From a virus, in IMG/VR virus record IMGVR_UViG_3300010157_000240, positions 1-24,431 of that record: a stretch of DNA of 24,431 nucleotides. One strand, 5' to 3'. Shown piece by piece: positions 882 through 15,177 of this stretch. Each line of letters opens with the position of its first letter. The stretch's first letter is position 1. Position numbers and translations under genes: made by a program. The notes beneath the pieces were generated by a model. It was not told where the DNA came from. It did no database searches and was given only the letters and a program-made list of their open reading frames with translations.

Positions 882-1325
882 ATGGCAACTCTATATTATT
901 ATAGTATAGGCGGAAATAACCTGAGCAACCCTTTAAATTGGTATACAGATTCAAGTTTTGAAGTACCAGCTGGTAGAATACCTACAGCATCTGATGATGT
1001 TATTATTCTCAGTGATATAACAAATAACGTCTCTACACCTACCTATAGCAGTATAGTAATAAAAACAGCAGTATTCGGTAACAGTAACGGTAACAATACA
1101 CTTGCTGCTGTAACGAGCGCGGTATTTTTTGGGTCGTGTGTAAATTATTTTAATATTACAGCACCTATTACTTACTTTAATGGGTACTCACAAAATAGAG
1201 GTACAATAAACGGCAGTGTTATTTTTAATGACTGTAGTTATAACGGATCCGGTGGCAAATACACAACCGCCACGTTTAATTCAATAAATAATAAAACAAT
1301 AGGTAACGCATCTTTGGTGCTTTAA
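882..1325 (+). CDS. Small fibre-associated protein, N-terminus related to the next gene
   Basis: 147 residues, beginning M-A-T-L-Y-Y-Y-S-I-G-G, with an N-W-Y segment followed by P-T-A-S-D-D-V-I-I-L. The same layout (N-W-Y ... P-S-V-T-D-C-V-I-L) opens the much larger protein at 1330. This arrangement is common at the N-terminal cap of beta-helix or beta-solenoid adhesins, where a buried V-I-I strand leads into the first rung. The remainder has a few strand-like segments ending in G-T-I-N-G-S-V-I-F-N-D-C-S-Y-N-G, which look like one or two solenoid rungs. It may be a capping or short-solenoid paralogue of the next gene, or a truncated relative of it. It sits 8 bases after the preceding stop and 4 bases before the next start, so it is probably co-transcribed. 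I do not recognise a named family. Confidence 0.65.
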   Translation: MATLYYYSIGGNNLSNPLNWYTDSSFEVPAGRIPTASDDVIILSDITNNVSTPTYSSIVIKTAVFGNSNGNNTLAAVTSAVFFGSCVNYFNITAPITYFNGYSQNRGTINGSVIFNDCSYNGSGGKYTTATFNSINNKTIGNASLVL

Positions 1326-1329
1326 CAAT

Positions 1330-4300
1330 ATGGCATATGTTTTCTTCAATACAGGTTCACCAACAGGATCCGGATCCTGGGCAACTGCTGCTAATTGGTA
1401 TGATTGTCCGGGTGGAATACGAACAACGGGAACAGGATTACTTCCTTCAGTAACCGATTGTGTTATTCTAGAGAGCAACATATGCACATTAGGAGCTAAT
1501 AGGGCTGTAGCTTCTATTTGTAATGATAATGCCACGGGTAGTTCGTTTTGTGGTGGTAAACATATAAAGGTAGTTGGTGGCACTTTAACACTATGTGGTG
1601 CATTAGCTCCAAGTAAGATGGTTAATGGTTCTGTTATTAATGTTTTTTCTTGCTGTGTCATAATGACAGCATCTACACCACTTACAATACAGTCAAGTGC
1701 TGTCGTAGGTACCCGTAAAATTGATAATCGCGGCGGTACAATAGATGTATGTAATTCCTCTATCGGTAACGGTGTATGTTTAACAAACTGTAATGCTGGC
1801 ACGATCCAGTTCTTTAATAGTACAATAGAGGGAGGGACTATTGTTTGTAACGCTGCGAGTTCTTTATCTAAAATTTTCTTTAGTGATTCTATGAATTGCG
1901 GAACGGTCACTAGTGGTTCGGGTAACACCGGCGATAATATACTATTTAGTAATAGTTTGAACTACGGTAATATAAATTTAGGAGGTGTATCAACTAGTGT
2001 TGTATTTGGATGTACAGTTGATGATTGTTCTGTTAATTTTGGTAATGGATGTGCTAACTGTTTTATTTTTTGTGGCTGCTCTATAAATTGCGGAGGTGGT
2101 TCAAATATGTGTTACCGCTTCCATGATACTACAGTTAATTATGGTTGTGCAGGCGGGTTGCTTGCAGTATGTTTTTATAATTACGCAACGAATATAGGTG
2201 GTTTGTCAGCTGCTTGTACATGGGTTGTTGATGATGCTATTAATTGTGGTGACATATATTCTTCTTGTAGTAGTATAATATGTGGCGGTGCAATTAATGA
2301 AGGTAAGATACGATCTGTATTGCGCAATTGTTTTTTTGATACGAGTGTTAATACAGGTAGTGCTTGTGCATCTTGTACTTTTTTGCGTAATAATGCGATT
2401 AATTGTGGTGTAATATGTAGCAATACCAGTAACTGTCTCTTTGATACTACAGATAATCAAGGAATCATTTGCGGTACTACAGTCATGAATACCGCAAATG
2501 ATAACACCGGGACAATTTGTGGTAATGCGACCTTTTTACAGGCATCAAATATAGGTTGCGTGGTAGGAAATAGTAATTTCTGTACGAATACGGCTAATAC
2601 AGAAAATTGCGGTCTCGTTACCGGGACAGCTTGTTTCGGTACATCAACTGGCTCTTATAATAGTTATAATTCCGGAATGGTTTGCGGTGATGCCACTTTT
2701 ACCGGTAATGGGGTTAATGAGGTAGTGAATTATGGCTGTGTCGCGGGTAATACTAGTTTTTCGTGTGGAGCTGGTAATCAAGGGAGCGTAGGATCAACGT
2801 CAATAAACACAGCTACATTTACATGCGCTGCGTATAACAGTTGTACTATTTGTGGAAATGGTGCCTTTTCTCGCACAGGCCTATTTTGTGAAGGACTTAT
2901 AACCGGGAATGGTTGCTTTTTTAGTAGCAGCACTCCTGGTTCGTTGACATCAGGTATGCCTCAGGAGAATTCCGAATGGGGACAGTATGGTGGTTGTATA
3001 TGTGGCGATATGCGTTATCTATCAGATACAGCGGTCAATGCTAGTCCTCTATGTATTAGTAAGTGTACGCCTTTATATTTTGTAAATGTGGGTGGTAGAT
3101 TTTGTGGGCCGGGTTGTGGTATAGGCCCCAGTGCATATAACACAATATGTTTTTTTGGTGACCGCTCAAACGATTTAAATACGACACTATGCGGTAATTA
3201 TAGAGGCAAATTTCAAAATTATTATTTCTGTTCTGGTGATATAAATTGTGCGACTCTTCAAGGCTCGGACAGTGTTCCGCTTATTAATGTAGAGTTTAAT
3301 AGTAATAATCCTAGCATTTATGAGACAGCTAATTACGGTACAATAATAAGTGATGGTAATGTTGAGACCGGTTATACTACAAATATACTATTTACAGGTA
3401 CTCTACCTAGTTCTAATAACTATGGTACTATTGTTGGAAATGCAGACTTTACGTGTGATACTATTAACTCTGGTACAATATGTGGTAATGCAGGCTTTTA
3501 TGCTACACCGGTTGTATGTCTCGTTCCTGCAGTCTGCTGGTTTGGTAACATTAATACAGCAAATTTTTCAAGTGTAGTAGGTGGCAATTCAAGATTTTAC
3601 GCTTACGATCTTAATACCAGTGTACTGAGCGGATCTTTAGGCACAGTAAATTTTTCGAATACAAAAGGTGCAGTACTCGGCACTTGTGGTCTTTTTGCTT
3701 GCGTTATATTAGCCTGTAATGATATATACTGCGGTCACAACACAAGTATACCGGCAGTTATCTTTAATGATAATTCAATAAACGCAGCAACCATCTCTGA
3801 TTCTAATACTTGTGTTATTTTTAAACAAAATTCTCTTAATTGCGGGACCATATACTGTGGCGATACTGTAGGTATTAATACAGATGCTCGTATCTTAGAA
3901 CAAGGGTGTGTTTTGTGTGACTTAACTATAGATAATAATAATGTTACTGATTGCTGTAACGGTGGTGTTTGGAGTTATCTAGGATGTGCTCAATATTCTG
4001 GAACAAGTGTATACGGTGCCAAGATAAACGGTAGATTGATAGATAAAGCGAGTGGGTGTATTGTACCTATTTTCAATTTTAGTGATTGTTCTCAAAATTG
4101 TGGTAAGGTACCGCCAAATGCACTCGCTATCTTTAATCAAAGCGCATTAAATAGCGGTACAGTAACTTGTGCCTGTACTAATAATATTTGTAATAATGAC
4201 GGTATACGTTTCTTAAACCAGGGTTGTTACCTATGTGACCTTAGTATAAGTGAAAACTGTGTAACAGATTGCTTTAATGGTAGTTGGGCTTATAGAGGAT

Positions 4301-5025
4301 GTGCACAATTTTCTGGTACTGATATGTTTGGTGCAAGAATTGATGGCAAGCTAATTGATAAAGTTGGTAATACTTGTGTACAAGTATTTGCGTTAAGTGG
4401 TTGTTCCTTTAATTGTGGAAGAGTGCCGTCAAACGTCTTTACTGTATTCAATCAGTGTGCATTAAATTGTGGAACGGTAAATTGTGCTTGTACTAATAGT
4501 ATTTGTAATAATAATGGCTTCAATTTCCTAAGACAGGGTTGTTACTTATGTGATCTCAGTCTAAGTGAAAATTGTGTCACTGATTGTTTTAATGGAAGCT
4601 GGTCATATAAAGGATGTGCTCAATACACGGGATCGAATATATTTGGTGCGAGAGTAGATGGTTGTATAATTGATAAAGTGGGCAGCAGTGCTATACAGAA
4701 TTTTAATTTCTGCGACACTTCTTACAATACCGGAAAGATTCCTGCAAAAGCTTGCTTCAATAATGCCTCACATAACGATGGTACAATAACAAGATCAGCT
4801 ATGTTCAAGAACACTAGTTATAACACCGGGACTATCGCTCTTACAGGTCTACTTTGTGACTGTACATACAATACCGGATGCATATGTTGTGTATCATTTA
4901 ACGGATACGCATACAACGGATGCGGTGGTACGTTTACAAACTTGATCGCATACAATAGTTTACAAAAAGGAATAAGTGGTGCACCCATACTCGGTGGCAG
5001 TCCACCTAAGACAACTTGTATTTAA
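1330..5025 (+). CDS. Giant cysteine-rich beta-solenoid-like virion protein
   Basis: 1231 residues, about 107 of them cysteine by my hand count (near 9 percent). The N-terminus (about residues 1-60) has an N-W-Y-D-C ... D-C-V-I-L cap-like segment shared with the preceding gene. Residues of roughly 140-850 are short irregular rungs of the type x-N-C/S-G-x-I-C-G-N-A-x-F, in which Cys often occupies positions next to Gly and Asn. Residues of about 854-1153 are three units of about 105 residues (see the repeat entry). The end reverts to Y-N-T-G-T-I-type rungs. I see no signal peptide, membrane helix or enzymatic motif. Rung spacing with conserved G, N and a buried I/F suggests a right-handed beta-solenoid, probably a fibre or spike. 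The cysteines could form ladders, disulfides or metal sites; none of this can be decided by reading. The gene ends by overlapping the stop codon of the minus-strand gene. It is a coding frame with confidence; the function is inferred from shape and neighbours. Confidence 0.8.
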   Translation: MAYVFFNTGSPTGSGSWATAANWYDCPGGIRTTGTGLLPSVTDCVILESNICTLGANRAVASICNDNATGSSFCGGKHIKVVGGTLTLCGALAPSKMVNGSVINVFSCCVIMTASTPLTIQSSAVVGTRKIDNRGGTIDVCNSSIGNGVCLTNCNAGTIQFFNSTIEGGTIVCNAASSLSKIFFSDSMNCGTVTSGSGNTGDNILFSNSLNYGNINLGGVSTSVVFGCTVDDCSVNFGNGCANCFIFCGCSINCGGGSNMCYRFHDTTVNYGCAGGLLAVCFYNYATNIGGLSAACTWVVDDAINCGDIYSSCSSIICGGAINEGKIRSVLRNCFFDTSVNTGSACASCTFLRNNAINCGVICSNTSNCLFDTTDNQGIICGTTVMNTANDNTGTICGNATFLQASNIGCVVGNSNFCTNTANTENCGLVTGTACFGTSTGSYNSYNSGMVCGDATFTGNGVNEVVNYGCVAGNTSFSCGAGNQGSVGSTSINTATFTCAAYNSCTICGNGAFSRTGLFCEGLITGNGCFFSSSTPGSLTSGMPQENSEWGQYGGCICGDMRYLSDTAVNASPLCISKCTPLYFVNVGGRFCGPGCGIGPSAYNTICFFGDRSNDLNTTLCGNYRGKFQNYYFCSGDINCATLQGSDSVPLINVEFNSNNPSIYETANYGTIISDGNVETGYTTNILFTGTLPSSNNYGTIVGNADFTCDTINSGTICGNAGFYATPVVCLVPAVCWFGNINTANFSSVVGGNSRFYAYDLNTSVLSGSLGTVNFSNTKGAVLGTCGLFACVILACNDIYCGHNTSIPAVIFNDNSINAATISDSNTCVIFKQNSLNCGTIYCGDTVGINTDARILEQGCVLCDLTIDNNNVTDCCNGGVWSYLGCAQYSGTSVYGAKINGRLIDKASGCIVPIFNFSDCSQNCGKVPPNALAIFNQSALNSGTVTCACTNNICNNDGIRFLNQGCYLCDLSISENCVTDCFNGSWAYRGCAQFSGTDMFGARIDGKLIDKVGNTCVQVFALSGCSFNCGRVPSNVFTVFNQCALNCGTVNCACTNSICNNNGFNFLRQGCYLCDLSLSENCVTDCFNGSWSYKGCAQYTGSNIFGARVDGCIIDKVGSSAIQNFNFCDTSYNTGKIPAKACFNNASHNDGTITRSAMFKNTSYNTGTIALTGLLCDCTYNTGCICCVSFNGYAYNGCGGTFTNLIAYNSLQKGISGAPILGGSPPKTTCI
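3889..4788 (+). repeat. Three tandem units of about 315-318 bp inside the cysteine-rich gene
   Basis: Units start near 3889, 4207 and 4522 and encode about 106, 105 and about 89 residues. Each begins with L-x-Q-G-C-x-L-C-D-L and continues with V-T-D-C, W-x-Y-x-G-C-A-Q, G-A-x-I/V-x-G-x-x-I-D-K and then a rung N-x-G-K/R-V/I-P. The second and third units are the most alike. DNA identity has drifted more than protein identity, so the duplications look old and under selection for the protein. Confidence 0.8.
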
Positions 5026-5037
5026 GAAAAAATACAA
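5016..5037. terminator. Weak stem-loop at convergent gene ends
   Basis: TTGTATTT (5016-5023) and AAATACAA (5030-5037) form a perfect 8-bp inverted repeat with a 6-base loop, exactly where the plus-strand gene (stop 5023-5025) and minus-strand gene (stop 5022-5024) meet. The stem has one G-C pair only, so it is weak. I call it a terminator because of its position, not its strength. Confidence 0.3.
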
Positions 5038-5705
5038 TAAGCAAATCTCTCATCTTCGGAGAGTACAACTTTGTATCCGTTCTTTTCAAGCCATAAAACA
5101 GATCTATAGTGCTTAACATGGCTTATATCATCTAATAACAATATTTTATTCTTTAGTCTATCTTTATCTAAGGACATAAATTTTTTAAATTCTAGATAAC
5201 CGACTCCACCAGCTGAATCTAAAAATACTAGCTGTCTTCTATCATTATCTATAAGTTTAATTAACAGATCTTCCATGCCGTTACTACATGTACTGTCACA
5301 TGAACACGATCCTATTACTTCTTGCTTATATAGATCTTTAATTTTTTCGATACCGTTACTTGCATAATCTACTATAAGACTATGTGACTTTACTTCGTCA
5401 GAATCATAGATATCGTCTTGATCTATAAATTTTACCATTTCATCTACAGGTAAGGACGTACCGTAGTAGAGCTCAACATTTTTATAATGTTTTAAATTGT
5501 GTTTAGCTTCACTATAACATTTATAAGAGCAATCTACTGATATAGTTTTTATTTTTGTTTTAGCAAAAATAGTCGTAGAACCTAATCCGTTAAACGTACC
5601 AGTCTCAATAATCTCTTCTATATTTCCTTTTTTAATTAGACTATCAACAGCCTTTTTAAATAACGAAGTATTGAGATTTATATGATATTTTCTATCTGCA
5701 AACAT
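5022..5705 (-). CDS. SAM-dependent methyltransferase-like protein
   Basis: 227 residues. Residues 32-45 (I-I-E-T-G-T-F-N-G-L-G-S-T-T) match the glycine-containing SAM-binding loop of class I methyltransferases. I-S-V-D-C-S (55-60) supplies the acidic residue expected at the end of the second strand. V-F-L-D-S-A-G-G (160-167) and L-L-L-D-D-I-S-H nearer the C-terminus fit later Rossmann strands. The layout is like small sugar or antibiotic O-methyltransferases (Methyltransf_24 or CmcI-like groups). A cysteine-rich insertion S-C-S-C-D-S-T-C (133-140) is unusual. Its start codon overlaps the stop of the glycosyltransferase-like gene by one base (TAATG), so the two are probably translated together. 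The likely role is methylating the product of that partner, or another glycan; the substrate is unknown. It is on the opposite strand to all the virion genes. Confidence 0.6.
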   Translation of the reverse strand: MFADRKYHINLNTSLFKKAVDSLIKKGNIEEIIETGTFNGLGSTTIFAKTKIKTISVDCSYKCYSEAKHNLKHYKNVELYYGTSLPVDEMVKFIDQDDIYDSDEVKSHSLIVDYASNGIEKIKDLYKQEVIGSCSCDSTCSNGMEDLLIKLIDNDRRQLVFLDSAGGVGYLEFKKFMSLDKDRLKNKILLLDDISHVKHYRSVLWLEKNGYKVVLSEDERFAYCIFS

Positions 5706-6643
5706 TAGAGCTTAATATTTGTTTTTTTAAGATCGAACGATAGTTTTTTAGGCTTTTTATTATTTACTAGCGACTGTAAAAAAGCATCCTTATCAAATAA
5801 GTTAGATTTATCGTCATACGGACACTCATAAATTTTACCCCCCGTCCAGTCATCAGACTCTAGATATGAATCAACTCTATGCCTGAAAGATTCTGCACCC
5901 GAAGCTAAAATATTATCATGTATATCATGTCCGAAAACTATAGGTGAATTTGATATCCACCCCACTGTTGCTTTTTTGTTCAAAGCAGCAGCAGCGTGTT
6001 GAACCATAGAATCCATGCAGAGAAACTTATCTGATAACGCAAACAAGCTAAACAGCACTCTTAGCCCATCTCTTGCTTGTATAGTGTTGCGTAATGCGGG
6101 TTGATCGTCTCGTCTGACGTGAAAAATTTTACTAAAATCTTTTTTTACATCGTCTATGATTTCTTGTGCAAAATCGTTGGGTAGGTCTCGCGACCATGAA
6201 TATGGGTGACCTTGTGTTTGCGCTCCCCCTGATGTCTGTACAACTAAAATTGGGCCATTTTTGTCTATCTTATCCCTAACAAAATTCGTCTCTTTATCGG
6301 TCAAAAAAAGTTCAGGTTTTTTATCTATACATGGAATATTAAAAACATCACACCATATTTCGGATAGTGATTTTCTACGATATAATAAATCTTCAGAGTG
6401 ATATGGTTCCATTCTAAGAATCTTAGAGTTTTTAGCTAAGATAAAATCATCGTAGAAATAGGGAATAGCGCCGAATTTATAAACTCTCCAAACGTTTGGA
6501 TTATGTAAAAACACTTCCGGGTATCCTGTAACTACAATTAATTTGTGTTCAGGGTACGCAGCTTTAATTGATTTAACAACTGATGTTGCAACAATATTCT
6601 TTCCACAACCGCCATCAACATGAAAGATTAGAAATTTATCCAT
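5705..6643 (-). CDS. GT9/heptosyltransferase-like glycosyltransferase
   Basis: 312 residues with the GT-B fold layout of the ADP-heptose:LPS heptosyltransferase (GT9) group. The N-terminus F-H-V-D-G-G-C-G-K-N-I (7-17) leads a first Rossmann strand and helix. L-I-V-V-T-G-Y-P-E-V-F is a second strand, and L-V-V-Q-T-S-G-G begins the C-terminal half. D-S-M-V-Q-H-A-A-A-A-L (211-221) followed by V-G-W corresponds to the nucleotide-sugar-binding signature of the family, with D211 and H216 at the usual positions. The expected role is transfer of a sugar from a nucleotide donor onto a surface glycan or a phage protein; donor and acceptor cannot be read from sequence. It is first in a two-gene minus-strand unit with the methyltransferase. 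The ATG lies in a perfect inverted repeat. Similar genes are known beside tail-fibre genes in T4-like marine phages. Confidence 0.65.
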   Translation of the reverse strand: MDKFLIFHVDGGCGKNIVATSVVKSIKAAYPEHKLIVVTGYPEVFLHNPNVWRVYKFGAIPYFYDDFILAKNSKILRMEPYHSEDLLYRRKSLSEIWCDVFNIPCIDKKPELFLTDKETNFVRDKIDKNGPILVVQTSGGAQTQGHPYSWSRDLPNDFAQEIIDDVKKDFSKIFHVRRDDQPALRNTIQARDGLRVLFSLFALSDKFLCMDSMVQHAAAALNKKATVGWISNSPIVFGHDIHDNILASGAESFRHRVDSYLESDDWTGGKIYECPYDDKSNLFDKDAFLQSLVNNKKPKKLSFDLKKTNIKL

Positions 6644-9575: not shown

Positions 9576-12089
9576 ATGGGATATATTGCCGCTACACTTT
9601 CATTAAACGTACCTGCTATTACAGCTGTCTGTAAGGGGCCGAGAGGTGGTATTGTATTAAGGGGTGTAGGAGCACCAACAATATCCGTTGGTCTATCAGG
9701 TGATTATTATATTGATGAATTGACGGCCATGTTTTATGGTCCTAAAGGAGATAATTGGCCATCGACACCTTTCATAACACTAAGTTACCCAACGAGCGCA
9801 GAACCGTATTCAATTGTTGGGTCAAATACTGCTGTAATCGTTCCACGTTACGGTAATAATACCATTAAATCAACAAGTATTAATTCAGCGATTTTAGGAG
9901 GTACTAATAATTCTTTAACAGGTAATAATTCGTTTATTATCGGTTCAAATATAATTGCAGCTATTACAGGCTTCACGCTTGTGAATAATTTATCCAGTAC
10001 AGGTACTATTTATGCTAGTTCCGGTAACAGTAATCAATGGAATACAACCTATCAAACTGTTTACGATAATAAAGATACATGGAATCAGATTATACCGGTA
10101 AATACTACATTAGCTGCACAATCGGCTAATAATATTTCTGTTTATAGCTCGGTAAACACGACGAGTGGTAATTGGAATAGCGTTTATTCAAGCTATTATT
10201 CCAATTCAGGTACATTTTTAACAAATACATCAGCAGCTTCATTGTATCAAAATATACAATTAACGCCCTTCACATTCATATCTTCAACCTCTTCAATTAA
10301 TACGCTTGTTGGTAGCAATACTGCAACCGGTAAGCTTTCAAAGGTGTTAGGTGGTAGTTATAATACCGCTTCAGGAAATTGTAGCACGATTGTAGGTGGT
10401 TATAGCGGTTGTACATCCGATGATCACGCTGTAGTCATAGGAGGTTGTAGCAATACAGCGTCAGGAAGCTACAGTACTATTGTAAACGGCAATAGTGGTC
10501 GAGCTTCTGGAGGCTCGAGTTCGATCATAGGTGGTTACTATAATTCTACGTCTGGTTATGCTTCGTTAATTGCAGGTGGTGTTTCCAACACAGTAGATAA
10601 TACTGGTTCATATAGCATCATTGGTAACGGGCGCAATAATACAATTTCAAAATGCCACTCTATTATTGGAAGTGGTGTGAATAATTCGGTGTCGGCGTGT
10701 TTTTCTTTTATTGTGGGGGGAAGTGCTAATCAGATTTTAGGAAACTATTCATCGGTTTTGGGAGGAATGCGAAATACTGCTTCTGGAAATTATTCATTTA
10801 TAGCTGGTGGACGAAGCAACAACACCAAATATGATAATACATTTATACTAGGATCATCACTAAGTGCATCTCAAGCTAACACAACATATGTTAATAGTAT
10901 AAGCTCTCAAGGCAACGCTCTTGTTGCGGGTAGTATAGGTATTAATGTATCATCGCCTAGTGAAAAATTACACGTACAGGGTGGTAATATTTTAATTAAA
11001 CCAGTTAGCTGGGACTCAGGAAAAAATAGCGGTTCTTTACTTTTTGGTGATACCAACAATGGAATTTCAAATCAATACGGGCAACCACTAGCGTTATCTG
11101 GTTATAACGGTATTTCATTTAGTGTAGGACAAGGAACTGGTAGTTGGTTACAGAATACCGTAAATATATCAAACTCCGGATCAGTAGGAATAGGTACAGC
11201 GCCTAGTGCTCCTCTTCATATTAATACTAGTAATTATGGTGCAATTCTTCTAGGTGATAATACTAACGGTAGTAGTTTTGTTATTACAAAAGAATCAATC
11301 GATAATTCATTTAATATATGGACAAATGTTTTTGAAAGTGGTACAAATAGATTAAAAATTGAACAGACAGGTAATACGATACTAACACCCAATGGTGGTA
11401 ATATTGGTATTAATGAAGTATCTCCAAAGTATAAACTTGACGTTAAGGTAACACCAGGTTTGGGCAACACCACCGGTAATCAAATTTCTGCATTAAGACT
11501 ATCAACCACTGTTTCTACTAACGATAATCTTGAAATAACAAATACAAGAACTGCTGCTGGTGCAGATTGGAATACAGCTGGTTGGAGATTGCAAGAAAAA
11601 ACGAATAATGCCTGGATGGGTTGGATGCAGTTTAATGGATATAACAACCCCGGTGGTATAACATTTGGTGCCGGACAAAGTACATCGTCACCGACAAGTG
11701 TTACAGAAAAAATGCGTCTTGATCAAAATGGTGCACTTACTGTTACTAGTACGATCAGCACAGGGTCAAGTATTGCAGCAGGATCGAATTGGCGTACGGT
11801 GACATCAGATTACTCTATTCAGGATACTGACTGCGGTGGTATTGTAGCTTTGAGTAGTAATACTAACAGTATAATTGTTACTATACCAAATAATAATTTT
11901 CGTACAGGGCACCAAACAACGTTTATTCGTGCCGGGCTTAGTGCTGTTACTATCTCCACAGGAGCGGGTGTTACGATTAGAAAAGCTACCGGTCTTGGTT
12001 TATCTCTTACAAGTCAATGGTCGGCAGCAACAATTGTATATTCAGGTATACCTTCTGCAGGTTGGGTATTGTTTGGTGATCTTTTATAA
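9576..12089 (+). CDS. YadA-head-type trimeric tail-fibre protein, intact paralogue
   Basis: 837 residues. The N-terminal domain (about 1-100; A-A-T-L-S-L-N-V-P-A-I-T-A-V-C-K-G-P-R-G) is shared almost base for base in places with the gene at 13283. A stalk with N-x-W-x-x-x-Y motifs follows (about 145-220). Residues about 240-430 are some 13 repeats of about 14 residues of the kind N-T-A-S-G-N-Y-S-x-I-x-G-G, the left-handed beta-roll repeat of YadA-like heads. Residues about 450-720 have segments such as G-I-G-T-A-P-S-A-P-L-H-I that are frequent in phage fibres. The last 90 residues (D-C-G-G-I-V-A-L-S ... G-W-V-L-F-G-D-L-L) are a known style of fibre tip domain. The protein is probably a trimeric host-binding fibre. 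No S74 chaperone is present. An exact late promoter motif lies 10 bases upstream. Confidence 0.75.
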   Translation: MGYIAATLSLNVPAITAVCKGPRGGIVLRGVGAPTISVGLSGDYYIDELTAMFYGPKGDNWPSTPFITLSYPTSAEPYSIVGSNTAVIVPRYGNNTIKSTSINSAILGGTNNSLTGNNSFIIGSNIIAAITGFTLVNNLSSTGTIYASSGNSNQWNTTYQTVYDNKDTWNQIIPVNTTLAAQSANNISVYSSVNTTSGNWNSVYSSYYSNSGTFLTNTSAASLYQNIQLTPFTFISSTSSINTLVGSNTATGKLSKVLGGSYNTASGNCSTIVGGYSGCTSDDHAVVIGGCSNTASGSYSTIVNGNSGRASGGSSSIIGGYYNSTSGYASLIAGGVSNTVDNTGSYSIIGNGRNNTISKCHSIIGSGVNNSVSACFSFIVGGSANQILGNYSSVLGGMRNTASGNYSFIAGGRSNNTKYDNTFILGSSLSASQANTTYVNSISSQGNALVAGSIGINVSSPSEKLHVQGGNILIKPVSWDSGKNSGSLLFGDTNNGISNQYGQPLALSGYNGISFSVGQGTGSWLQNTVNISNSGSVGIGTAPSAPLHINTSNYGAILLGDNTNGSSFVITKESIDNSFNIWTNVFESGTNRLKIEQTGNTILTPNGGNIGINEVSPKYKLDVKVTPGLGNTTGNQISALRLSTTVSTNDNLEITNTRTAAGADWNTAGWRLQEKTNNAWMGWMQFNGYNNPGGITFGAGQSTSSPTSVTEKMRLDQNGALTVTSTISTGSSIAAGSNWRTVTSDYSIQDTDCGGIVALSSNTNSIIVTIPNNNFRTGHQTTFIRAGLSAVTISTGAGVTIRKATGLGLSLTSQWSAATIVYSGIPSAGWVLFGDLL
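9586..10187 (+). repeat. Direct repeat shared with 13293-13890 (paralogous fibre N-termini)
   Basis: Three blocks are identical between the two fibre genes: 9586-9647 with 13293-13354 (62 bases), 9996-10085 with 13699-13788 (90 bases) and 10117-10187 with 13820-13890 (71 bases). The sequence between them is similar but diverged. They lie in the same orientation about 3.7 kb apart. Downstream of the last block the two genes differ. Confidence 0.9.
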
Positions 12090-12101
12090 AATGCCTTTGT
12101 T

Positions 12102-13238
12102 ATGTCTTTCTTATTATCACGTCTAGGTACAATATCGTTTGCGAATACAATATACCCTGTTGTTGTAGCAGCTGAATATTTCTTAAACGACGGTGTGTTT
12201 ACATGGACAGCACCTGAAACAATGGTACCTGGTAGTCTCTCTGCGTTTGTAGTAGGAGCCGGTGGATCTTCTTACTACCCTTACAGTGTTACCGGTACAT
12301 CAGGTGGAGGGGGGGGAAGTATAATAGCAACTGTATCTGCAAATCCCGGTACAACATTAACAGTCGTTGTTGGGTCCGGTTCTGGCTTCCCAGATCCTGC
12401 TCATACTGAAAGTGCTTATGGCGGGGATTCCTGGTTAGGTATTCTCGACCCTACAGCACCCTCTAACTATACTTTCATTAGGAGACATAAAATATTAGTA
12501 TCCGCTCAGGGCGGCCGCGGGTATAAAGGTGGTAGCACCTTTGTTAATTTAGGCCGTACAATATTGTCATATACCGGTGTAAATGGAATTACAGGGTTAA
12601 ACTCAGTATCTGACCCGCCGCGAACCGATAATTATATATACCGAGATGATACTAGTGACCTAAAGGCGAAACCTTTTGTATTTCTTCTTCCTAATGGTCA
12701 ACCATATGATAATGTTAGTTTTCAGGTACGAGCCGGTGGTACTCAGCAATGGGGGAGAGACGATACATTCTATAATTATGATTTAGATATTCCTTTCTAT
12801 CCAGGCTTTGGCGGTTGCACAGTTGCAGTTAATAATGGTAATTACACTGAGGCTTGGAGAGGCCGCAAGGGGTTTGTATCTCTTGCATATAGATACATGC
12901 CGAAACCTAGGCCGTATATAATAAAAAAGGAATTTGCAATAACTGCAAATTCAGATGATACTCCAAATTTAGATTTTGGTGTAATTCCCCTTGGAGGTAG
13001 AACAATAACATCCTATGAAATTGATGAATATTCGTTTGATCCTCTCATTGTTGATTTAGTATACTATGTTAGTATTAAAGGTAATTCCAGCAGAACGCAA
13101 GGTGTTGGTGGTAACAGCGGCATGGGATATTTCTACGTAGGCAGAAATATCCCTGTGGGCGTATATACGTTTACCGTAAATATTACCATTGAGACTAAAC
13201 AAGTAATAGAATATCACGTAACTGTCAGAGCTGTATAG
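12102..13238 (+). CDS. Second glycine-rich fibre/adhesin protein
   Basis: 378 residues. Residues about 30-75 (V-F-T-W-T-A-P-E-T-M, then S-A-F-V-V-G-A-G-G-S, then S-G-G-G-G-G-S-I-I-A) parallel the first Gly-rich domain of the gene at 6790 (W-P-V-P-T-G-V-T, I-I-V-V-G-A-G-G, and S-Q-V-I-T), followed by the same L-T-V-V-V-G-S-G strand. The rest of the domain, to about 265, is less glycine-rich than in 6790. The C-terminal 100 residues (F-A-I-T-A-N-S-D-D-T-P-N-L-D-F-G onward) look like an Ig-like or other beta-sandwich module. Likely a fibre or adhesin subunit. It starts 12 bases after the preceding stop. A TATAAAAT at 12085-12092 is a poor promoter candidate, so it may be expressed with the upstream gene. 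It ends with TAG. No motif for an enzyme was seen. Confidence 0.65.
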   Translation: MSFLLSRLGTISFANTIYPVVVAAEYFLNDGVFTWTAPETMVPGSLSAFVVGAGGSSYYPYSVTGTSGGGGGSIIATVSANPGTTLTVVVGSGSGFPDPAHTESAYGGDSWLGILDPTAPSNYTFIRRHKILVSAQGGRGYKGGSTFVNLGRTILSYTGVNGITGLNSVSDPPRTDNYIYRDDTSDLKAKPFVFLLPNGQPYDNVSFQVRAGGTQQWGRDDTFYNYDLDIPFYPGFGGCTVAVNNGNYTEAWRGRKGFVSLAYRYMPKPRPYIIKKEFAITANSDDTPNLDFGVIPLGGRTITSYEIDEYSFDPLIVDLVYYVSIKGNSSRTQGVGGNSGMGYFYVGRNIPVGVYTFTVNITIETKQVIEYHVTVRAV

Positions 13239-13282: not shown

Positions 13283-13600
13283 ATGGGAAATGTTGCCGCT
13301 ACACTTTCATTAAACGTACCTGCTATTACAGCTGTCTGTAAGGGGCCGAGAGGTAGTACTATATTAAGAGGGTCTAATCCACCTACGATATCCATTGGTC
13401 TATCAGGTGATTATTATATAGACATACTTTCAGCTAAGCTTTACGGTCCTAAAGAAATTACCTGGCCGGACTCAACGCTTACACTAAGCTACCCATCAAG
13501 TGCGTTTCCGTATTCAATTGTTGGGTCTAATACTGCTGTAATCGTTCCAATTTACGGTAATAATACATTAAATCGACGAGTATTAATTCAGCGATTTTAG
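13283..13600 (+). CDS. N-terminal fragment of frameshifted YadA-type fibre gene
   Basis: 105 residues. The first 95 or so match the N-terminal domain of the paralogue at 9576 (M-G-x-x-A-A-T-L-S-L-N-V-P-A). After G-N-N-T the frame runs L-N-R-R-V-L-I-Q-R-F and stops, whereas the paralogue continues I-K-S-T-S-I-N-S-A-I-L-G-G. The cause is one missing base: the paralogue reads ataccattaaatc and this copy reads atacattaaatc (about 13563-13574). Restoring that base would join this fragment to 13570-15177 as a 631-residue protein. As it stands, only the attachment-type domain would be made. Confidence 0.75.
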   Translation: MGNVAATLSLNVPAITAVCKGPRGSTILRGSNPPTISIGLSGDYYIDILSAKLYGPKEITWPDSTLTLSYPSSAFPYSIVGSNTAVIVPIYGNNTLNRRVLIQRF

Positions 13601-15177
13601 GAGGTACTAATAATTCCTTAACAGGTAATAATTCGTTTATTATCGGTTCCAATATAACAGCAGCCATTACAGGGTTTACTCTATTAAACAATCTTTCAAG
13701 TACAGGTACTATTTATGCTAGTTCCGGTAACAGTAATCAATGGAATACAACCTATCAAACTGTTTACGATAATAAAGATACATGGAATTTAATAACACCG
13801 GTAAATACTACATTAGGAACACAATCGGCTAATAATATTTCTGTTTATAGCTCGGTAAACACGACGAGTGGTAATTGGAATAGCGTTTATACCGGGTATA
13901 AAAATGCTTCCGGTACGTATGTAACATATATTGACGGTATTACATCTTTTGCATATACACGTAACGCTACACTATCGTCGATACAGCCTGTTTTAGGTGG
14001 TAATACATCATCAGGAAAAGGTAGTGTTATTGGTGGTGGTAAATCAAATACCGTTAGCGGAAATTGTAGTAATATAGGGGGTGGTGTATGTAATTCTCTA
14101 TCAGGTTCACTCGGTGTTATTGGTGGAGGTTACTGTAATACAGCTTCTGGCGATTACAGCACTATTATTGGCGGTTATAGCGGTGCTGCTATAGGCAAAT
14201 ACTCTGTAGTAGGAGGTGGTGCTACAAATACTGCCTCCGGTTACGGGTCCTTTGTTTCTGGTATATGTAATATTGCCGCCGGTGATGGAAAGATTAATAC
14301 TATCATAGGCGGTTGCCAGCATAATATAATCGGTGTTCAAGAGTCTTTATCTAACGCAATTATAGGCGGGACGTTTCATACCATATCTGGTGCACAGGCA
14401 ACTACTTCAAAATTTCATTCTATTATAGGTGGGTGTTGTAATTGTATAACAGCCAGCTGTATGGCATCAATTATCGGTGGAACATATAACACCGTATGTG
14501 GCACTGATGCAGCAGTGATCGGGGGGAGATACAACTCATCAAACGGTACAGATTCTGTAATCATCGGTGGTTGTAGAAATACTACCGGTGCAAATAATTG
14601 TGTGTTTATACTCGGTCAAGGATTAAGCGCAACACAGGCAAACTATACATACGTTAATAACTTAAGCTCTCAAGGAAGTGTAGCAGCCCGCGGTGGAGAT
14701 AGTTCTCTGTGGAACAGCAACTATACAAATTCCTTTGCAAACAGCGCTAGTTGGGCTAGTGTGTATTCTTATGTTAATACCGCTACTGCTAATACACTTT
14801 ATATAAACAACTTAAGTGCAAGTGGGCGGTCGGATGTATCATCTGTATCAGAAACAAAAGCAATGCCAGCAATTTCCGTTAACGTTCTAACACTTGATTT
14901 AAGCACGGCTTCGCTATTTTATGTAAATCTTAATAGTGATATTATTACTTTTAATTTTATTAATCCACCACCTTCACCAAGAGTTTGTTCATTTACAATT
15001 CAATTTGTCAGCGATGGTACAGCACACAACATTGCATGGCCGGCTTCTGTTTCTTGGCCAGGTGGCGTACCACCTGTACTCACAACTACTGTTTACAGAA
15101 TTGATACTCTTACGTTCTTTACACACGATGGTGGTACGAAGTATTTCGGCTTCGTAAGTGGGCAAAATTTTGCATAG
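13570..15177 (+). CDS. Distal part of the frameshifted YadA-head fibre gene
   Basis: From about 13570 an open frame continues without a stop to the TAG at 15175-15177. It has no start codon of its own near the beginning; the first ATG is at 14461, in the middle of the repeats. In order it encodes a stalk with N-W-x-S-V-Y motifs like that in 9576, about 17-18 YadA-head-type repeats (N-T-A-S-G-D-Y-S-T-I-I-G-G at about 14130-14180, running to about 14620), a second short stalk (W-N-S-N-Y, W-A-S-V-Y), and a C-terminal tip of about 105 residues ending F-G-F-V-S-G-Q-N-F-A. That tip (W-P-A-S-V-S-W-P-G-G, then D-T-L-T-F-F-T-H-D-G) is a recognisable phage fibre end that differs from the tip of the intact paralogue. 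So the two genes share a base and differ in the head length and tip. Confidence 0.7.
   Translation, partial: KSTSINSAILGGTNNSLTGNNSFIIGSNITAAITGFTLLNNLSSTGTIYASSGNSNQWNTTYQTVYDNKDTWNLITPVNTTLGTQSANNISVYSSVNTTSGNWNSVYTGYKNASGTYVTYIDGITSFAYTRNATLSSIQPVLGGNTSSGKGSVIGGGKSNTVSGNCSNIGGGVCNSLSGSLGVIGGGYCNTASGDYSTIIGGYSGAAIGKYSVVGGGATNTASGYGSFVSGICNIAAGDGKINTIIGGCQHNIIGVQESLSNAIIGGTFHTISGAQATTSKFHSIIGGCCNCITASCMASIIGGTYNTVCGTDAAVIGGRYNSSNGTDSVIIGGCRNTTGANNCVFILGQGLSATQANYTYVNNLSSQGSVAARGGDSSLWNSNYTNSFANSASWASVYSYVNTATANTLYINNLSASGRSDVSSVSETKAMPAISVNVLTLDLSTASLFYVNLNSDIITFNFINPPPSPRVCSFTIQFVSDGTAHNIAWPASVSWPGGVPPVLTTTVYRIDTLTFFTHDGGTKYFGFVSGQNFA

Follow-up and report, generated by a model that had tools for sequence, protein, structure and literature searches.

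A cysteine-rich fibre gene in a host-recognition cluster

The window analyzed here is the entire record of a viral contig (IMG/VR record IMGVR_UViG_3300010157_000240, 24,431 bp), and close to its start lies an open reading frame (ORF), 1330-5025, in which cysteine accounts for 107 of the 1231 encoded residues (8.7%; 85 TGT and 22 TGC codons), exactly the figure of about 107 given in the original prediction for this DNA. By comparison, cysteine makes up between 0 and 2.6% of the products of the 15 other ORFs of the window that were examined. The cysteines are found along the full length of the protein, with 1-9 in every 60 residues. The start ATG of the gene is located 4 nucleotides past the stop codon of ORF 882-1325, a short member of the same family that we used as an internal control. 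As this paralogue carries so few cysteines (Table 1), neither composition, nor the host environment, nor the phage as a whole can alone explain the excess. We also considered two other sources and dropped them: a recoded cysteine codon, because the other genes of the cluster are cysteine-poor, and a diversity-generating retroelement, because the cysteines are spread over the whole gene.

The region is a fibre/adhesin, host-recognition cluster: the segment 22162-24078 carries the domains Peptidase_S74 and Mtd_N, and 14461-15177 matches tail-fibre PHROGs. Given this tail-fibre neighbourhood, the product of ORF 1330-5025 would be a virion protein of the phage. The T4-type late promoter sequence TATAAATA occurs in the window at a frequency expected by chance.

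Table 1. Genes and protein segments discussed in the text (window coordinates).
Position	Strand	Feature	Basis or remark
1330..5025	+	Cysteine-rich beta-solenoid fibre/adhesin protein, 1231 residues, 107 cysteines	Translation count
882..1325	+	Short paralogue, same family as the 1330-5025 protein, two cysteines only	Internal control
1330..1580	+	N-terminal cap domain GSW..A.NW....LP...D.VI, common to ORF 882-1325 and about 30 viral proteins	Alignments, hidden Markov model search
1894..2835	+	Main run of N-x-G rungs, residues 189-502, cysteines on outward columns (predicted)	AlphaFold2, column counts
3808..4740	+	Three tandem internal repeats of ~105 residues, 49-54% identity to the first	No relative found in viral contigs
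4726..4917	+	C-terminal rungs, the portion nearest to the low-cysteine family	
4969..4995	+	C-terminal motif GISGAPILG, equivalent to GINGSSILG of the family	Read from sequence
5022..5705	-	Gene lying between those of the glycosyltransferase and the fibre, probably a class I methyltransferase	By eye; very weak PDB match, O-methyltransferase, E 0.056
5705..6643	-	Gene of glycosyltransferase type, GT9/heptosyltransferase-related, running towards the fibre gene (convergent)	Sequence similarity
13283..15177	+	Another fibre gene in the cluster, YadA-head type, with a frameshift near 13590 and cysteines in GG-x-C-N type repeats	Three-frame translation

Family membership and predicted fold

The protein matched no family of Pfam, PHROG or NCBIfam, and sequence searches of annotated phages and of the PDB gave no match to it; nor were direct relatives found when IMG/VR was searched with its own peptides. 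A scan for the pattern N-x-G-T-I-x-G-N-A-x-F, on the other hand, retrieved 46 viral stretches, many of them with long proteins built on a 16-residue rung. The family so defined is poor in cysteine and consists of an N-terminal NWW cap, N-x-G-T-I rungs in variable number and a C-terminal GINGSSILG. The window protein belongs to it by homology of both cap and rungs, with phmmer values of 9.6e-21 (L009) and 4.1e-9 (L011) against two of the relatives, and it ends 9 residues after its own version of the C-terminal motif. Among 32 distinct relatives that have the same N-terminal domain, cysteine ranges from 0 to 3.6%, which leaves the window protein, at 8.7%, as an outlier. Scans for the cysteine-bearing rung motifs GTICGNA and NCGTICG found no cysteine-rich relative of the window rung type.

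The beta-solenoid rungs that the original prediction had read from the sequence are supported by AlphaFold2 models, which cover the protein up to residue 620 of 1231. In a first run, based on an 11-row alignment, residues 345-540 received a predicted local distance difference test score (pLDDT) of mostly 70-92, and confidence was low elsewhere; a second run on residues 228-480 gave a mean pLDDT of 77.8. Residues 1-227 and 541-620 are thus modelled with low confidence. Numbering the columns of each rung from the N of N-x-G, strands recur in the models at N0, at about +3 to +6 and at +8 to +11, and a three-sided beta-solenoid is confidently predicted for this part of the protein. A three-sided helix is also hinted at by the bactofilin profile (PF04519), which some low-cysteine relatives match just below its gathering score (L011, E 5.9e-6; L026, E 1.2e-4; at most 26.9 bits vs 27.9) and the window protein does not match.

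None of the Foldseek matches to the two models was significant, the lowest E values being 0.33 in PDB and 0.36 in BFVD. When its top chains were realigned, the adhesin TibA, in the form of the fragment that TibC hyperglycosylates, came first for both models (Z 15.9 over 224 residues, root mean square deviation 4.2; Z 21.3 over 241 residues, root mean square deviation 3.3), ahead of other beta-helices, a result that supports the fold but not a function. Particularly, TibA and AIDA-I are autotransporter adhesins, with a passenger and a C-terminal translocator barrel, whereas the window protein comes from a phage, is enriched in cysteine rather than serine, and has no autotransporter domain detectable with Pfam. 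As a solenoid, it adds a new protein to a kind of phage adhesin that is already known.

Position of the cysteines on the rungs

We assigned the orientation of the rung columns from column statistics, not from model coordinates. In 114 rungs of the relatives, a hydrophobic residue occupies +4 without exception and +8 in 93% (A 71, C 14, V 7), and F stands at +10, while columns +1, +3, +5, +11, +13 and +15 are mainly polar and variable. These statistics suggest that the first three columns point inward and the other six outward. In 23 rungs of the window protein, cysteine was counted 6 times at +1, 4 times at +3, 8 times at +5, 4 times at -5 and 3 times at -3, and never at N0, +4, -2 or -6. Outward columns thus hold cysteine in 25 of 138 cells and inward columns in 2 of 92 (P=1e-4), and the same outward columns of the relatives in 2 of 684 (window vs relatives, P=2e-18), both P values being indicative, as cells were treated as independent and columns were assigned after inspection. 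The relatives place their cysteines at the buried column +8 and at almost no other; in the window protein, +8 holds a cysteine in 5 of the 23 rungs, with an uncertain orientation in rungs of 17 residues. In the three internal repeats, 5 cysteine columns are common to all and 7 occur in one only, so the density of cysteines is kept while their positions drift.

The original prediction had placed these cysteines at fixed positions of the rungs and suggested that they form a ladder in a beta-solenoid, as in some insect antifreeze proteins, or repeated metal sites, and that the protein could become a hardened spike. That a solenoid is predicted speaks for it, and such a column does exist in the family: in one low-cysteine relative (L026, 8533-9438), all 11 cysteines occupy a single inward column, G-x-C-x-F/L, in one rung after another. 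They make up a true buried column, comparable to the ladder of the leucine-rich repeat protein InlJ, as far as the passages citing InlJ in PMC9210967 and PMC3196904 describe it. In the window protein, however, only 1 of the 107 cysteines takes the G-x-C-x-F position, same-column cysteines in adjacent rungs show no excess (8 vs 6.7 in shuffled sequences, P=0.34), and the cysteine positions are not conserved in the relatives, so that neither of the two checks proposed with the original prediction, on stacking and on conservation, supports a ladder. Moreover, its rungs are 15-25 residues long, unlike the 12-residue rungs with fixed cysteines of the insect proteins. What stands of the fixed places is a preference for +1 and +5; any one column is filled in at most about a third of the rungs, and the consensus N, G and I/V never are. 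The likeness to InlJ, on the same partial descriptions, goes no further than a repeat protein with cysteines, which here are scattered over outward columns instead of one. Since the cysteines appear to lie on outward, variable columns and avoid the conserved core, they would not form a disulfide or stacking ladder, and column statistics thereby make a ladder-hardened spike highly improbable.

Disulfides could still arise in another way. The outward thiols might stay free in the cytoplasm, oxidise after lysis and link rungs, fibre chains, or the fibre and the host surface, giving a stiffer fibre or covalent attachment. Hardening after release, as first proposed for this protein, would then be possible as scattered surface cross-links and not as a stacked core ladder. 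Thiols at the predicted surface would be within reach of oxidation, and cysteines do follow one another at +5 in three successive rungs (starts 358, 376 and 392). Nevertheless, we consider this unlikely: adjacent same-column pairs occur at the chance level given above, CC is depleted (3 vs 8.4 expected), CxxC shows no enrichment (7 vs 8.6), cysteine positions change from one of the three internal repeats to another, and the association with a glycosyltransferase (GT) gene described below would go unexplained. Thiols also bind metals, and the fibre could be a lure or ligand laden with soft or transition metals, an idea akin to the Trojan Horse hypothesis, which concerns iron in the tails of marine phages. 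Metal-bearing tail fibres have been proposed for marine phages on the basis of HxH motifs (PMC11705849), but the translation of ORF 1330-5025 has 4 histidines in 1231 residues and no paired His-x-His. As CxxC is not enriched and the cysteine columns are variable, no repeated chelate is apparent either, and the GT gene would again be left aside, so that we hold a metal-binding role to be quite improbable. The cysteines appear instead to be a surface decoration, on outward variable columns and away from the conserved core, and this anatomical part of our explanation, taken without any mechanism, we regard as very probable.

Cysteine-rich fibres of other types

Relatives of the GT-like gene downstream of the fibre gene were found in 17 loci at 63-71% identity. 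One of them (L142) encodes a fibre of 802 residues with 8.1% cysteine and another of 1998 residues with 3.7%, both with repeats of the YadA-head type rather than the window rung: the YadA-head repeat is an N-x-A-x-G array, the window rung N-x-G-x-[IV] with F. A scan of viral sequences for N-T-C-G-C-x-N-x-A then retrieved about 20 loci with large cysteine-rich fibres of up to 140 cysteines and up to 7.5%. Overall, the cysteine-rich fibres with these repeats, whose YadA label was assigned by eye and not from a profile match, contain 4-8% cysteine, and their neighbour genes mostly encode 0-2%. In 588 distinct 17-residue repeats, cysteine is absent (0%) from the conserved positions N1, 2, A3, 4, G5, A8, L9, N12 and G15 and reaches 10-27% at seven of the eight remaining, variable columns; because the scan demanded cysteine at two columns once per match, the heights of columns 14 and 16 are biased, and the empty core columns are unaffected. 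As in trimeric adhesins, these phage fibres have a YadA-head array, here with cysteines on its variable columns only. Cysteine decoration has arisen also on phage fibres unrelated to the window protein.

Two annotated marine viruses extend the picture. AG-345-L05 (MH319754.1; L182) has a YadA-type fibre ORF of 2472 residues whose 75 cysteines all fall in the repeats, which leaves about 100 residues at the start and about 270 at the end free of cysteine. AG-345-O18 (MH319759.1; L194), located through its glycosyltransferase alone, has at 10016-13158 two adjacent ORFs with 9.6% (73/758) and 10.6% (31/292) cysteine, directly upstream of a GT9-like gene. They match no Pfam family and show no obvious repeat rung, and form a third, unassigned type of cysteine-rich fibre, at 10% cysteine. 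No simple sequon common to all the cysteine-rich fibres was seen. A scan of bacterial genomes for NTCGC-x-N-x-A indicated no host, as among the matches listed no locus that we read had YadA-type repeats.

The window has YadA-head-type fibre genes of its own. The one at 13283-15177 is split by its frameshift, while the paralogous gene at 9576-12089 has an uninterrupted reading frame; the split may come from faulty assembly or be a genuine lesion. The two genes, starting at 9576 and 13283, have the N terminus MGxxAATLSLNVPAITAVCKGPRG in common, which suggests that they share an attachment domain to which different shafts can be joined.

A glycosyltransferase gene associated with cysteine-rich fibres

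The GT-like product of the window is 34% identical to a protein of MH319754 and 25% identical to a 'putative glycosyl transferase' of a Pelagibacter phage. Against the GT9 profile (PF01075) it scores 11.5 bits, below the cut-off of 22, which its homolog in phage HTVC112P just reaches (22.1 bits). It matches models of lipopolysaccharide (LPS) heptosyltransferases weakly, and no TibC/AAH model. We searched whole records with an alignment of this protein and obtained matches in 11 of the 14 with cysteine-rich fibres, or 10 of 13 when the record found through the GT itself is omitted. By contrast, none of 22 records with low-cysteine relatives of the window protein had a match (Fisher test against the 10 of 13, 1.6e-6), although these controls represent the window rung family and not low-cysteine YadA-type fibres, so that lineage could confound the contrast. 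Five of the ten matches have E values below 1e-130, one of 4e-27 and four of 1e-7 to 1e-10; two of the strong records (L162 and L166) may be one virus. An ORF with 3.5-7.5% cysteine lies close to the strong matches. When loci were picked for the GT regardless of cysteine, the maximal cysteine content of their fibres was above that of controls (P=9e-5), though most reached only 1.4-2.6%. Among annotated phages the GT is rare, being found in HTVC111P, HTVC112P, AG-345-L05 and AG-345-O18, and in the first two, which are cultured Pelagibacter phages, the fibre and GT genes overlap by 1 nucleotide. As a further observation, the GT of L142 directly adjoins a sulfotransferase gene (9939-10760; PF13469, 2e-11), and a gene of this same MPRSMSTL type was seen by eye next to the GT in several other loci.

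The GT might have nothing to do with the fibre. It could modify host LPS, for instance against co-infection, as a common resident of such clusters. The cysteine-rich surface would then be a separate trait, hypervariable or used in host binding, or the outcome of drift under weak selection at the variable columns. Its weak similarity to LPS heptosyltransferases and the convergent arrangement of the two genes in the window agree with this, and the authors of the pelagimyophage genomes read the glycosyltransferases of tail clusters in this way (PMC7029224). The co-occurrence in 10 of 13 vs 0 of 22 records, the direct adjacency and the 1-nucleotide overlap in HTVC111P and HTVC112P are against it, and drift would leave unexplained how several types of fibre come to have 8-10% cysteine while their neighbours remain near 1%. 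We consider this alternative not very likely.

A candidate mechanism and its implications

The explanation that we tentatively prefer, while thinking it somewhat less probable than not when taken as a whole, is that surface cysteines offer thiols as modification sites and that the GT is the leading candidate for their modifier. The ORF 1330-5025 product would be a tail fibre or adhesin that begins with a cap and continues as a long three-sided beta-solenoid, with three larger internal repeats and, at the C-terminal end, a conserved motif. Inside the host cell, a chemical group would be attached to its outward thiols, probably an S-linked sugar transferred by the GT9-like enzyme encoded near such fibres, and the density of cysteines would seem to matter more than their exact position. 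The result may be a sugar coat on the fibre, much as the heptosyltransferase TibC coats the beta-helix of TibA by placing heptose on its serines (PMC4358343; PDB 4q1q). With that system the window has in common the predicted beta-helix, for which TibA is the best structural match, and a GT9-like gene near the fibre. Virion glycosylation as such is known in mycobacteriophages, according to the passages of PMC12619734 and PMC10877033 that cite Freeman et al. (2023). It is the co-occurrence of the genes that points to cysteine as the candidate linkage point, and we infer also the location on the virion, the attachment of a sugar and the function of the coat.

Several observations weigh against this proposal, besides the column orientation taken from statistics and the lineage of the control records. 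The four weak GT matches are partial and adjoin low-cysteine neighbours, and the match at 4e-27 is itself far from the strong ones. Many GT-bearing loci (L127-L141) have fibres of only 1-2.6% cysteine, and the fibres of HTVC111P and HTVC112P are low as well (1.5-1.9%, vs 0.7% in Venkman and 0.2% in CRP-1). Conversely, two incomplete records with very cysteine-rich fibres (L163 and L149) have no GT match, and the scan pattern that retrieved the cysteine-rich YadA-type loci itself required cysteine. In the window, the GT and fibre genes are convergent, with the methyltransferase-like gene between them, so they are not co-transcribed and give no sign of an operon. Finally, glycosyltransferases are common in host-recognition clusters of aquatic phages, where those of pelagimyophages have been taken to modify LPS.

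A broader version would see a recurring system of aquatic phages, in which several unrelated fibre folds carry outward cysteines and a dedicated, neighbouring GT9-like enzyme, together with methyl- or sulfotransferases, turns these into a virion coat of S-linked glycans; at present we think this rather improbable. Cysteine-rich surfaces are in any case unexpected on proteins whose synthesis takes place in the cytoplasm, under reducing conditions. We searched the literature on cysteine-rich tail fibres, cysteine ladders and S-glycosylation and found no description of cysteine-rich phage fibres, so a cysteine-studded outer surface on unrelated fibre types, tied to one GT family, is undescribed as far as that literature shows. 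If the link to the GT is real, it points to glycosylation of the virion through cysteine. Cysteine-linked glycosylation is known from few bacterial products, and to our knowledge it has not been described for phage fibres. The cultured phages HTVC111P and HTVC112P, with their overlapping fibre and GT genes, make part of the proposal testable, though their fibres are far poorer in cysteine. If it is true, the glycosyltransferases so frequent in the host-recognition clusters of aquatic phages would gain a target other than the LPS of the host.

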